64,000 nt of DNA from Mesorhizobium sp. B2-7-2. GTDB taxonomy: Bacteria; Pseudomonadota; Alphaproteobacteria; Rhizobiales; Rhizobiaceae. The position numbers and the translations under genes were made by a program. Positions 5,359-52,740 of the stretch are shown here, piece by piece; positions within the stretch are counted from its first letter, which is position 1; each line of letters begins with the position of its first letter. The notes beneath the pieces are model-generated. The model had not been told where the DNA came from. It searched no databases and saw nothing but the letters and a program-made list of their open reading frames with translations. The stretch spans positions 1-64,000 of the forward strand of contig NZ_VFTZ01000002.1 of the NCBI RefSeq assembly GCF_006440775.1, read 5' to 3'.

Positions 5359-5463
5359 CGTCATTCCAGGGCGGAGCAAGGAGCGAAGCGACGCGCGCAG
5401 ACCCTGGAATCCATGCCGTGACGTCGAGGCGTTGCAGCGGTCACAGAATTCTGCTCCGTTGCA
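5359..5463. repeat. Repeat family B, left half plus centre
   Basis: Starts CGTCATTCCAGGGCGGAGC, continues through GGAATCCATGCCGTGAC and ends in the central AGAATTCTGCTCCGTTGCA block. It matches the left arm of the complete elements at 36887-37068 and 43491-43671 and of the GIY-YIG element at 52106-52617. The right arm is missing here and gene-remnant sequence follows. Confidence 0.75.
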
Positions 5464-27918: not shown

Positions 27919-28449
27919 ATGAGAGGGCCGATCAATGCCGACAGCGAACCGATCGACCCGCGCGTCCGCGTCGGGCATGTTCATCTGAAGGTCGCCGATC
28001 TTGAGCGATCGCTCGCTTTCTATTGCGGTGTGCTTGGCTTTGGCCTGCAAGGGCTGCTTGAAGACGAGGCCGCGTTCCTCGCGGCCGGCGGCTATCACCA
28101 TCACCTCGCGATCAACACTTGGGAAAGCCGGGGCGGTTCGCCGCCGCCCGAAGGATCGACCGGCCTCCATCACATTGCCTTCGTCTATCCGACGCGAGCC
28201 GCGCTCGGCCGCGCGTTCCGCCGCCTTCGCGCCGCGGGCGTGCAACTCATCGGCGCCAGCGACCACGGTGGCACGGAGGCGATCTATCTCCGCGATCCGG
28301 ACGATAACGGCGTCGAGCTCTACTGGGATAGGCCCGAGAAGGAATGGCCGCGCAACGCCGATGGCTCGTTGAAGATCGTCAACAGTCCCCTCGATGTCGA
28401 GAATCTGGCCAGCGAGGGATCGTCCGTGCCGCCGGAGGGGGAAAGATAA
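27919..28449 (+). CDS. VOC-family protein (catechol-2,3-dioxygenase/glyoxalase-like)
   Basis: A 176-residue vicinal-oxygen-chelate protein close to the N-terminal module of CatE-like dioxygenases. VGHVHLKVADLERSLAFYCGVLGFGL opens the first module, HHHLAINTWESRGG supplies a likely metal histidine, GLHHIAFVYP a second, and DPDDNGVELYWDRP contains the third ligand glutamate. It is divergent from a LysR regulator. Positions 28078-28480 are duplicated, degenerately, at 31056-31450. The substrate is unknown. Confidence 0.85.
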   Translation: MRGPINADSEPIDPRVRVGHVHLKVADLERSLAFYCGVLGFGLQGLLEDEAAFLAAGGYHHHLAINTWESRGGSPPPEGSTGLHHIAFVYPTRAALGRAFRRLRAAGVQLIGASDHGGTEAIYLRDPDDNGVELYWDRPEKEWPRNADGSLKIVNSPLDVENLASEGSSVPPEGER

Positions 28450-28518
28450 GTCTGCGGCTTGTCGTGCCGAGAGGCTGGCGCGGCGCAACGAAGGTCCGCT
28501 TTGCGCCGCCAGGAGCGG

Positions 28519-30818: not shown

Positions 30819-31055
30819 GACTGTCACTCCTGTTTGGGGGCAACATTGGTCGAAGCAAACGGGGCAGACGCGTAGATGTTCCCGGGGAATCGCAAAATTG
30901 ACTGGCTGCTGACAGAATATCTGAGCATGCGGCGTGAAGGTCTTCATCGTGATCCGCTCTGCCTTCGCACCGTTGCCTGCCTGACGTCATCGCCCGTGCG
31001 GTGTGGTTGTATTTCCGCTTTCCGCCTGTGTCGCGCACCTCGCGATCTGCCGCCC

Positions 31056-31417
31056 TCCTCGCGGCCGGCGGCTATCACCATCACCTCGCGATCAACACTT
31101 GGGAAAGCCGGGGCGGTTCGCCACCGCCCGAAGGATCGACCCGGCCCCCATCACATTGCCTTCGTCTATCCGACGCGAGCCGCGCTCCGCCGCCTTCGCG
31201 CCGCGGGCGTGCAACTCATCGGCGCCAGCGATCACGGTGGTGCGGAAGCGATCTATCTCCGCGATCCGGACGATAACGGCGTCGAGCTCTACTGGGATAG
31301 GCCCGAGAAGGAATGGCCGCGCAACGCCGTGGCTCGTTGAAGATCGTCAACTGTCACCTCAATGTCGAGAACCTGGCCAGCGATGGATCGTCCGTGCCGC
31401 CGGATGGGAAAGGATAG
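31056..31417 (+). pseudogene. Duplicated, frameshifted fragment of the VOC gene
   Basis: Near-identical to 28078-28449 of the intact VOC gene (over 90 percent by eye), but lacking the first third, with small indels around 31140 and a 12-base deletion near 31183, plus a one-base deletion near 31329 that causes a premature stop. The similarity continues about 30 bases past the old stop codon. It lies in direct orientation 2.98 kb from the parent copy. Confidence 0.85.
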
Positions 31418-31597
31418 ATTTGTGGCTTGTCATGCCGAGAGGTATGGCGCTGGCGCACCCAGGCAGTGATCGAGCGTTGCCCGTCTAAGACAATCTATGG
31501 CCAAGCTGCGGATAAATCGGGAAATTCATCCAGCTGCGATCAAGAGCCGGTCGTTCGGCAACACATCCGGGAAGCGGGAGATGAAACTTGATAGGAA

Positions 31598-36016: not shown

Positions 36017-36101
36017 TGATCAGGCTCAGCGAGCAGCCGTCAACCTTCGAGATTGGCCGTGGCCATGTTCCCGGCGTCATTCCAGGGCGGAGCAAGCAGC
36101 G

Positions 36102-36781: not shown

Positions 36782-36882
36782 TTCCCCGTCACAGGGATTT
36801 TGAAAGGTTGCGGTTTGTCTTGGTGCAAGATTTTCCGTTCATTTCCGTGAAATCAGCGCAAACGACAGGTTGAAGCCGCCCC
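36782..36882. repeat. Dispersed repeat family A, copy 2 (inverted)
   Basis: Reverse complement of window positions 1-110 with few mismatches. It sits just upstream of secB and abuts a complete family B element, giving a composite 290-base repeat region. Confidence 0.75.
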
Positions 36883-36886
36883 AACC

Positions 36887-37068
36887 TCGTCATTCTATGG
36901 CGGAGCAAGGAGCGAAGCGACGCGCGCAGACCATGGAATCCATTCCGTGACTTCGAAGCGCCGCCACGGTGCAGAATTCTGCTCCGTTGCACGCCTTCGC
37001 GAAGGTAACGGCATGGATTCCAGGGTCTTCGCGACGGAGCTTCGCTCCTGCTCCGCCCTGGAATGACG
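36887..37068. repeat. Family B palindromic element, complete (about 180 bp, MITE-like)
   Basis: The left arm starts CGTCATTCTATGGCGGAGC; the right arm ends GCTCCGCCCTGGAATGACG in inverted orientation. The centre contains GCCGCCACGGTGCAGAATTCTGCTCCGTTGCA. Structure and length equal the copy at 43491-43671. It has no coding capacity; the same arms bracket the GIY-YIG gene at 52106-52617. Confidence 0.85.
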
Positions 37069-37145
37069 ATCGCGATGGGGCGTTTCGGCCAATCTCCAAG
37101 GCATGCCGCCTGCCAGAGCCGACCGGGCAAAATCCCCGTCCGGGA

Positions 37146-40628: not shown

Positions 40629-40742
40629 TTCGTCATCCACGGGCGGAGCGGGAGCGAAGCGGACGCGCAGGCCCGAGGATCCATTCCGCGGTTTCGCGCG
40701 AAGGGCAAGGCGGCGCAGAACAGAGATCGTTCTGCGCCGCGG
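40629..40742. repeat. Diverged family B half-copy plus 12-bp hairpin
   Basis: CGTCATCCACGGGCGGAGCGGG through GAGGATCCATTCCG is a diverged left arm of family B. It is followed by a perfect hairpin GCGGCGCAGAAC-AGAGATC-GTTCTGCGCCGC (about 40711-40741). The hairpin has no T tract. Together they separate the xre gene from the convergent secreted-protein gene. Confidence 0.6.
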
Positions 40743-43490: not shown

Positions 43491-43671
43491 CGTCATTCTA
43501 TGGCGGAGCAAGAGCGAAGCGACGCGGCGCAGACCATGGAATCCATGCCGTGACTTGGAAGCGCCGCCACGGTGCGGAATTTTGCTCCGTTGCACGCCTT
43601 GGCGAAGGTAACGGCATGGATTCCAGGGTCTTCGCGACGGAACTTCGCTCCTGCTCCGCCCTGGAATGACG
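43491..43671. repeat. Family B palindromic element, complete (about 180 bp, MITE-like)
   Basis: Same organisation as 36887-37068, with roughly ten differences: CGTCATTCTATGGCGG left end, central GCCGCCACGGTGCGGAATTTTGCTCCGTTGCA, and inverted right end CCGCCCTGGAATGACG. It lies immediately downstream of the rlpA-like gene. Confidence 0.85.
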
Positions 43672-44698: not shown

Positions 44699-44753
44699 CG
44701 TCATTCTGAGGTCTACGCTCTGCTTCGCGTCGCTCCGCCCTGGATGACGAAGG
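44699..44753. repeat. Diverged family B half-copy
   Basis: CGTCATTCTGAGG...CGTCGCTCCGCCCTGGATGACG keeps the CGTCAT/ATGACG ends and the CTCCGCCCTGG block of family B but has lost most of the interior. The remainder of the 44540-45016 gap holds only a candidate short peptide. Confidence 0.45.
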
Positions 44754-52040: not shown

Positions 52041-52105
52041 GAACTCGCAGATACCACGTCATCGTGGTAATCCTTCGCGCCCCCTCTGGCCTGCCAGCCT
52101 TGTCC

Positions 52106-52617
52106 TTCGTCATTCTAGGGCGGAGCAAGGAGCGAAGCGACGCGCGCAGACCCTAGAATCCATGCCGTGACGGTTGAGAGCCGCCACGGTTTAGAACGGT
52201 TCACCAGCCGATCCCGCGAAACAGCTCGAACCATTCCGGATTGGTCTTCTCGATCAGCTCGATCTTCCACCGGCGTGGCCAACGTTTCAATGACGTCTCA
52301 CGCTGGATGGCATCGGCGATGTCGAAGTATTCCTCGTACCAGACCAGACGCTGCACACCGTAGCGGCTGGTGAAGCTGGAGCCTTGGCCAGTCTTGTGCT
52401 CCGGCATCCGGCGAGCAAGGTCGTTGGTGACACCGATATAGATCGTGCCGCCTTTCTGGCTTGCGGTCATGTAGACGTAGCCTGTCATGTGGGGATCTTA
52501 GCTGGCGCCATTACCACCCGCTATTCTGGACCGTTGCATTCTATGGCCAATGTCACGGCATGGATTCTAGGGTCTGCGCGCGTCGCTTCGCTCCTTGCTC
52601 CGCCCTAGAATGACGAA
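52106..52617. mobile_element. Putative GIY-YIG element bounded by perfect 66-bp inverted repeats (family B)
   Basis: Positions 52106-52171 and 52552-52617 are exact reverse complements over 66 bases. They are the family B arms (CGTCATTCTAGGGCGGAGC...). Between them lie arm-proximal family B sequence (GCCGCCACGG at left, CCGTTGCA at right) and a GIY-YIG nuclease gene. The element is about 512 bp; the gene-less 180-bp copies at 36887 and 43491 have the same arms and centre, as expected for deletion derivatives. No target-site duplication was identified. Confidence 0.65.
52201..52488 (-). CDS. GIY-YIG nuclease family protein
   Basis: A 95-residue single-domain nuclease. GYVYMTASQKGGTIYIGVTNDLARRMPEH provides the two tyrosine-containing strands (VYM and IYIG) and the catalytic-type arginine, RYGVQRLVWYEEY the second strand pair, and IQRETSLKRWPRRWK the metal-binding glutamate. 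It belongs to the short, stand-alone UPF0213-like group abundant in Rhizobiales. It sits inside inverted repeats also found gene-less elsewhere in the window, suggesting a role in moving or maintaining those repeats. Confidence 0.9.
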   Translation of the reverse strand: MTGYVYMTASQKGGTIYIGVTNDLARRMPEHKTGQGSSFTSRYGVQRLVWYEEYFDIADAIQRETSLKRWPRRWKIELIEKTNPEWFELFRGIGW

Positions 52618-52740
52618 GCGCCATTTGCGATCGTCCTGCCCGCGAGAGACGCGCTGTCCCGCTGACCTCTCGGTATGTGTGCCATTGCACGCCGCCATCC
52701 ACGCTCTAAACTGCCCCCAACTGCGATCTCCGGAGGCGCC

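Follow-up and report, generated by a model that had tools for sequence, protein, structure and literature searches.

A gene encoding a 95-aa GIY-YIG nuclease lies between two exactly complementary inverted repeats in Mesorhizobium sp. B2-7-2, within a stretch of 64,000 nucleotides that was analyzed as a whole and is referred to here as the window (contig NZ_VFTZ01000002.1, positions 1 to 64,000). The gene and its two arms, which are inverted CGTC-REPs, likely constitute one mobile, autonomous, 'REPtron-like' element, with the GIY-YIG protein acting as a nuclease dedicated to moving the CGTC-REP family to which its arms belong. Gene-less palindromes of the same kind, namely dimers, single arms and solo hairpins, greatly outnumber it and are probably non-autonomous relatives of the gene element and would be served in trans. 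The mobility of the element and cleavage by its nuclease are what we infer, the direct observation being polymorphism in presence and absence.

Organization of the element and its relatives in the genome

The initial annotation had placed the gene inside perfect inverted repeats, and this description holds: the arms measure 67 nt each, are 100% complementary and are separated by a spacer of 380 nt, with the element spanning positions 52108-52615 from CGTC to GACG (Table 1). The inverted-repeat score of its flanks was 67, compared with a 99th percentile of 21 in a scan of 410 window positions, whose few top positions overlap the element itself. The window arm reads CGTC-ATTCTAGGG-(30 nt)-CCCTAGAAT-CCA. 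An Rfam search of the window assigned no family to the element, the two matches at the gathering score being tRNAs.

Table 1. Positions of the gene element, its parts and the gene-less relatives in the window
Feature	Position	Strand	Description
Left arm	52105..52171	+	CGTC-tagged REP: CGTC, stem ATTCTAGGG ... CCCTAGAAT and tail CCA, plus inner spacer
Left arm CGTC tag	starts 52108		outward-facing
Central palindrome, left half GCCGCCACGGTTTAGAAC	52180..52197	+	adjoins the 3' end of the gene
GIY-YIG single-domain nuclease gene	52201..52488	-	95 aa, stop included in coordinates
Central palindrome, right half TATTCTGGACCGTTGCATT	52522..52540	+	upstream of the gene
Right arm	52552..52618	-	exact reverse complement of left arm; outward CGTC tag ends at 52615
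Gene-less short relative 1	36888..37068	.	two inverted CGTC-REPs round palindromic centre ACGGTGCAGAATTCTGCTCCGT
Gene-less short relative 2	43491..43671	.	centre is a slightly altered version of ACGGTGCAGAATTCTGCTCCGT
Single arm	5359..5423	+	
Truncated arm	36078..36093 (end approximate)	+	
Single arm, CATCCACGGG type	40631..40690 (end approximate)	+	
Solo hairpin CGTC...GACG	44699..44749	.	like the scar form in relatives at site E3

The two gene-less relatives reported earlier are real. Many short copies consist of two REPs round a palindrome such as ACGGTGCAGAATTCTGCTCCGT, and the gene copies carry the gene at the middle of a palindrome of this type, with one palindrome half on either side, so that the gene of the long copy does occupy the place of the short copies' centre, as had been proposed. 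As single-stranded DNA, the short copy at 36887-37068 was predicted to fold into one long hairpin (-74.1 kcal/mol vs. -34.0 for shuffled sequences, z -12.4). Four further positions had been described as half-copies; this applies to those at 5359 and about 40631, which are single arms, while the arm near 36078 is truncated and the copy at 44699-44749 has the form of a solo hairpin.

At the level of the whole genome, the GIY-YIG gene was found four times, three times intact and once as a remnant, and in every case inverted arms enclose it. At least 61 arm matches were identified (40 of 183 candidates scored), and a looser arm pattern gave 164 matches, vs. none for the reversed pattern. Among the 61 arm matches, 25 inverted pairs lay no more than 2 kb apart, comprising 21 short and four long pairs, and the four long pairs are the four gene copies.

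Other repeat structures were also observed. An outer inverted repeat of the GATTGGCCGAAGC ... GCTTCGGCCAATC type encloses some REP dimers or gene elements, both in the window (36860-36887 and 37069-37100) and at loci L034, L348 and L056, and the elements thus seem to be nested inside one another. Additionally, the window contains a duplication (28069-28474 vs. 31049-31442, about 3 kb apart) whose pieces are 88-97% identical; these are probably coding sequence, glyoxalase-like by look.

The nuclease and the class of its arms

The window protein matches PF01541 with 60.2 bits, which places it in the GIY-YIG superfamily. Y17, G19, R27, E64 and N83 were invariant in 51 sequences and Y6 nearly so, and we take these residues to be catalytic. 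The available text of PMC1564403 describes the GIY, YIG, Arg and Glu elements as catalytic in GIY-YIG enzymes. The genus loci examined numbered 52, and their 46 intact genes gave a median dN/dS of 0.067 over 476 (non-independent) pairs; the gene is therefore under strong purifying selection. An AlphaFold2 model (pLDDT 92.3) consists of a bare GIY-YIG domain and no further domain. The closest solved folds were the UPF0213 protein BH0048 (E 7e-5), Slx1-Slx4 (E 0.014, 2.4 A over 72 columns) and the GIY-YIG domain of UvrC (E 0.06), and the only match of the protein in an NCBIfam search was a sub-threshold one to a group I intron endonuclease.

Slx1 is a branched-DNA nuclease, and a hairpin or cruciform would therefore be a reasonable substrate for the window nuclease. 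The fold and the branched-DNA nuclease activity of Slx1 form the shared ground of this comparison; in contrast to Slx1, the 95 aa include neither a RING domain nor an Slx4 partner, and the choice of substrate is suggested by analogy. UPF0213 proteins (BH0048, EF2693), presumably the YhbQ group, share the same single-domain fold and provided the best match among solved structures. They differ in context, as 30 weaker homologues were not REP-flanked (1/30 and 0/30 by two measures), with the likeness to UPF0213 seen in one of them, L190. BH0048 matched this weak homologue at E 2.6e-15 and the window protein at E 1.8e-6, values that express match strength and not position in a tree. Ten weak homologues gave no match over the cut-off against NCBIfam, so the UPF0213 label derives from the one of 30 compared with solved structures (L190).

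A very unlikely explanation is that the nuclease is a domesticated processing factor that resolves REP hairpins or trims them on the host's behalf, serving genome stability or RNA ends, and lies near REPs without driving their spread. The strong purifying selection and the structural likeness to the branched-DNA nuclease Slx1 would agree with such a role, but the gene is patchily present (65 of 101 genomes with a match), occurs in multiple copies (up to 11 matches per genome, fragments included), is found as a remnant inside intact arms (L004) and is polymorphic by site, all of which argue against it and leave a mobility nuclease as the preferred reading.

The placement of the arms in a known class, the CGTC-REPs, is an addition to the initial annotation. 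According to the available text of Di Nocera et al. 2013 (PMC3733652), this class is defined by an unpaired CGTC tag, a stem of 8-9 bp starting with AT, a CCA tail and mostly inverted (HH) dimers. The window arms likewise have the unpaired CGTC tag, an AT-starting stem, the CCA tail and inverted dimers, with 164 pattern matches in the genome. In tag, stem, tail and HH dimers they resemble the published CGTC-REPs, although the Mesorhizobium loop is about 30 nt long, compared with 4-5 nt, with some exceptions, in the text of that paper. The same text includes Neisseria dRS3 and Rickettsia RPE-4/6 among CGTC-REPs and states that the super-family 'apparently lack a dedicated transposase'; no associated transposase gene is given there, whereas in Mesorhizobium there is an associated GIY-YIG gene (PMC3733652).

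The analogy to RAYT/REP systems drawn in the initial annotation is apt. Like RAYT REPtrons and REPINs, which combine GTAG-REPs with the HUH-Y1 transposase TnpA_REP, the window element is a small one-gene unit between inverted palindromic REPs, accompanied by many gene-less dimers of the same REPs, a patchy presence and a match between enzyme type and repeat type. In contrast to these systems, the enclosed gene belongs to PF01541 and encodes a GIY-YIG enzyme, not an HUH-Y1 transposase, and the tag is CGTC, not GTAG. The profile PF01797 (Y1/RAYT) had no match in the genome of strain B2-7-2, which rules out a RAYT as the mover there, and matched in seven of 61 genus genomes.

No publication linking GIY-YIG genes with REPs appeared among the literature matches listed, a search that lay outside preprints and most subscription papers, so a report elsewhere is possible. 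The terms 'GIY-YIG' and 'dRS3' did not occur together in the literature searched, and the available text of PMC9465073 has a table entry for a GIY-YIG gene and refers to a RAYT paper, with no link between the two.

Association of gene and repeats across genomes

The initial annotation had asked whether such arms flank other genes of this kind, and they do so at all four copies in the genome, at 30 of 33 genus loci and at 48 of 83 loci outside the genus. The 33 genus loci comprise the best one per relative and the four copies of strain B2-7-2, and 30 of them scored 20 or more for inverted repeats in their flanks. The three exceptions were L045 (score 19, cut by a contig end), L065 and L066; the latter two are without flanking arms, and in each a CGTC-REP dimer lies to one side of the gene. 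No arm of the CGTC-REP kind seen in the window accompanies L354 and L355, distant copies from the genus that share 49% identity with the query.

Across Pseudomonadota, 209 of 398 genomes had a gene match at E<=1e-6, ranging from strong to weak. The 83 loci outside the genus come from 81 genomes (two each in G100 and G411), all with E values of 1.5e-33 or better among the matches listed; five same-genus loci, L162 (flank too short) and the existing intermediate matches between 1e-15 and 1e-30 stand apart from this set. A score of at least 20 was reached by 48 of these 83 strong loci; it was also reached by 3 of the 966 sliding positions taken from these stretches and by one of 30 weak homologues. 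When tagged hairpins within 300 bp were counted, 34 of the 83 loci had them on both sides, 21 on one side and 28 on neither. The corresponding controls gave one position with both sides and 90 with one side among 1081 sliding positions, and none with both and one with one side among the 30 weak homologues. The latter (E 1.4e-13 to 5.2e-9) are 30 loci from 50 hand-picked genomes, all 50 outside the class of the window genome, and the contrast with them is therefore partly taxonomic. In an intergenic-matched control, gaps adjoining the gene held a hairpin in 47 of 95 cases and the remaining gaps in 15 of 115 (2.8 vs. 0.95 per kb), a contrast smaller than that with sliding positions, yet clear.

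A second set, drawn from named loci of GTDB genomes, gave 50 of 79 loci vs. one of 216 in the control. It consists of the best 80 of 568 after removal of L250 (flank too short) and includes seven Mesorhizobium loci; L209 is the same as locus L064 and L207 the same as L353, and other overlap with the first set is possible. Likewise, 11 of 15 plasmid-collection loci, chosen from 41 records, scored at least 23, compared with shuffled maxima of 11 to 14.5. Two weak cases were L078 of Planktothrix (17.5) and L085 of Spirosoma (17), and L079 of Photobacterium and L082 of Rhizobium tumorigenes were at the shuffled level. In Neisseria gonorrhoeae (L072), dRS3-type repeats lie on both sides of the gene; this case is given little weight because such motifs are dense in that stretch (20 GTCAT[TC]C motifs in 4.3 kb). 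Arm sequence varies by host, with the CGTC-REP plan mostly kept, and the link between the gene and flanking repeats is general.

Some individual loci showed further features. The contig of L122 (G366:C23) carries a tandem pair of GIY-YIG copies separated by about 0.9 kb. In L078, on a Planktothrix agardhii plasmid, the homologue is situated between an MmeI-type restriction gene and the DISARM gene drmA, and the flanking inverted repeats are weak. The 'plasmid' records NZ_CP119140.1, NZ_AP026896.1 and NZ_CP069303.1, of 2.2 to 4.9 Mb, are chromosome-like by size.

Copy numbers followed the gene. With kinship ignored, the median number of arms in the genus was 31 in the 29 genomes with an intact gene and 13 in the 32 without (p 0.003), and arm count correlated with the number of gene matches (Spearman 0.50); genomes without an intact gene held up to 61 arms. 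Both the intact-gene and the strong-gene genome sets were compiled by hand from the match lists. The initial annotation had named homologues lying outside such repeats, with no correlation in copy number, as evidence that would speak against its reading. This outcome was not seen in the genus, given the kinship-blind correlation above, yet L065, L066, L354 and L355 and 28 of the 83 outside loci lie outside such arms. Across the 398 genomes, also with kinship ignored, the co-occurrence of one REP type with the gene gave odds ratios of 4.5-5.6; for example, at least one match to the CCCGCG-stem REP was found in 54 of 96 strong-gene genomes vs. 67 of 302 others (odds ratio 4.5). Among non-alphaproteobacterial genomes of 100% completeness, at least four matches to this REP occurred in 6 of 17 with a strong gene vs. 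4 of 122, kinship again being ignored. At least 10 copies of the CCCGCG-stem REP were present in 27 genomes with no strong gene match, some of which are incomplete assemblies.

The type of the gene corresponds to the type of its arms. In Mesorhizobium, the arm types TTCTAGGG, TCCTAGGG and TCCACGGG each occur with their own gene type, and genome G026 bears one gene of each of the three. Gene identity and arm identity were correlated (Mantel r 0.64, with none of 2000 permutations as high), and when arms were shuffled among same-genome paralogues only, none of 5000 permutations reached the observed value; 47 of 54 elements had both arms parsed and entered these tests. The gene and its arms thus stay together as a unit. 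Type matching alone is no proof that the enzyme recognizes the arms, and co-inheritance of linked DNA could account for it.

These data also bear on the idea that the REPs are spread by something else and that the gene tends to land beside them or is carried between two of them. In the available text of PMC5082802, REPs of other bacteria are described as targets of insertion sequences, and the one-sided tagged hairpins at 21 of the 83 outside loci would be expected from such a passenger. Against it, most Mesorhizobium loci have paired inverted arms whose spacing from the gene is comparable, types match within one genome, arms are absent at empty sites, and no PF01797 match exists in the genome of strain B2-7-2. 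We consider this explanation quite improbable and retain the autonomous element as the better account.

Occupied and empty sites and the proposed route of spread

The comparison of orthologous sites in relatives, as suggested in the initial annotation, indicated that sites missing the gene also miss the arms at E1 (the window element), E2, E3, E4 and one Azospirillum site, except that three relatives keep a solo hairpin at E3. At E1, 18 of 30 loci were read: four were filled (G000, G058, G047 and G035), nine had neither gene nor arms, three carried unrelated inserts and were armless, and two (G003 and G042) were unreadable because their anchors failed. Site E2 was empty in the three relatives read (G024, G015 and G004). 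Of six relatives read at E3, G058 was filled, G004, G046 and G486 carried a solo hairpin CGTC...GACG, and G011 and G026 had neither gene nor arms. Site E4, where the copy of strain B2-7-2 is the decayed one, was filled in G058, G033 and G026 and empty in G504 and G044 (five relatives read). Around the short copy D1, ten relatives were read; G058 had a different dimer, G046 a solo hairpin, and the other eight no dimer. In Azospirillum lipoferum 4B (L074, plasmid AZO_p3), a unit composed of REP dimer, gene and REP dimer occupies 617 bp between sufB and sufC, inside the Fe-S cluster operon and on the same strand as the operon, and in all four other Azospirillum read this gap measures 55-129 bp and contains neither gene nor REP.

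The solo hairpins, with the form CGTC-stem-loop-stem-GACG, were found at L326, L327 and L330 (site E3) and at 44699-44749 in the window. They resemble a solo-LTR scar, and recombination of one arm's stem with that of the other could produce them. Overall, the three states seen at these sites, empty, filled and solo, are reminiscent of an element that arrives whole and disappears through recombination between its ends.

Another explanation, which we regard as unlikely, is that a free-standing homing endonuclease makes its cut in the middle of gene-less REP dimers and enters them by gene conversion, with the arms as its home and not as part of a moving unit. The position of the gene at the centre of the short-copy palindrome is consistent with this, as are identical arms combined with diverged genes, which fit conversion, and the inclusion of homing enzymes in the GIY-YIG superfamily (available text of PMC1564403). 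However, the catalytic domain shared with homing endonucleases such as I-TevI and the seg genes is accompanied here by differences: the 95-aa model contains no further domain, no intron was seen, and the empty sites read have no flanking arms. A pre-existing intact target allele, which homing presupposes, was not encountered, as gene-less relatives at E1, E2, E4 and sufB-sufC were armless too, and E3 had solo hairpins in three relatives and neither component in two. At sites that hold a gene copy in one genome, none of the loci read showed an intact dimer devoid of the gene. Because sites miss arms and gene together, homing into ready-made dimers is weakened relative to the gain of arms and gene as one element.

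The reading of the locus as an autonomous element, put forward in the initial annotation, is retained for the unity of arms and gene, with gene-less sites armless, for the general association and for the matched types. The short copies may be internally deleted derivatives, as the initial annotation proposed, or the gene may have entered a short palindrome. Its further argument on age, that exact arm identity implies recent movement, had to be given up. The E1 and E2 genes differ by a dS of 0.29 (dN 0.009) and their arms are identical over 67 nt, so the likeness of the arms is due to conversion or constraint and is no sign of recent movement.

Target-site duplications had also been proposed for inspection, and none was seen at the E1-E4 and D1 junctions read; these junctions have diverged, so an old duplication could be lost. 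The element shares with MITEs and their DDE insertion sequences the combination of an autonomous copy with shorter inverted-repeat relatives, and differs from them in that its sole enclosed gene is a GIY-YIG gene and that the junctions read showed no target duplication. Where E1 is filled, a palindromic repeat already resident there has been partly replaced, and the insertion boundaries are unclean. A second Mesorhizobium palindromic family (CCCCCTCTGNCCTGCCGG...ATCTCCCCC...GGGGGAGATGGCCGGCAGG...CTGTCCCGCC) was observed in intergenic position at site E1 in L290, L291, L294, L295, L296 and L303, and seems to be partly replaced in genomes holding the gene element. In the 70-bp flanks of 44 gene elements (49 tried), a CTGCC/CTGTCCCGC-type motif occurred in 17 and a GATTGGC-type motif in 10, compared with 11.1% and 0.85%, respectively, of random 140-bp stretches of the window. 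The motifs were picked after viewing the flanks, and a possible target preference is therefore a lead only.

To our knowledge, GIY-YIG enzymes hydrolyse DNA and do not join strands. In the route that we propose, the palindrome, as a cruciform or a single-stranded hairpin, would be cut by the Slx1-like nuclease, and ligation or recombination by the host would then copy or re-insert the unit of arms and gene. Re-insertion would often take place at another palindromic repeat and leave no target duplication, and loss would proceed through recombination between arm stems, yielding a solo hairpin.

Alphaproteobacteria are the main hosts of CGTC-REPs, which also occur in Neisseria, Rickettsia and other phyla, and according to the available text of PMC3733652 the source of their mobility has been open since they were named. 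On balance, we lean slightly towards the view that the element represents an unrecognised class of bacterial mobile elements, in which the missing dedicated mobility enzyme of CGTC-REPs, perhaps of the dRS3 type too, is a minimal GIY-YIG nuclease that is structure-selective, has cognate terminal palindromes and spreads both autonomous and gene-less palindromes by hairpin cutting and host repair, in place of a strand-transferring transposase. A type-matched nuclease located amid the repeats makes the question of CGTC-REP mobility directly testable. If this view is correct, we know of no earlier short-repeat system in bacteria whose driver is a hydrolytic GIY-YIG enzyme instead of a transposase, and this one would provide many natural enzyme-hairpin pairs for comparison.
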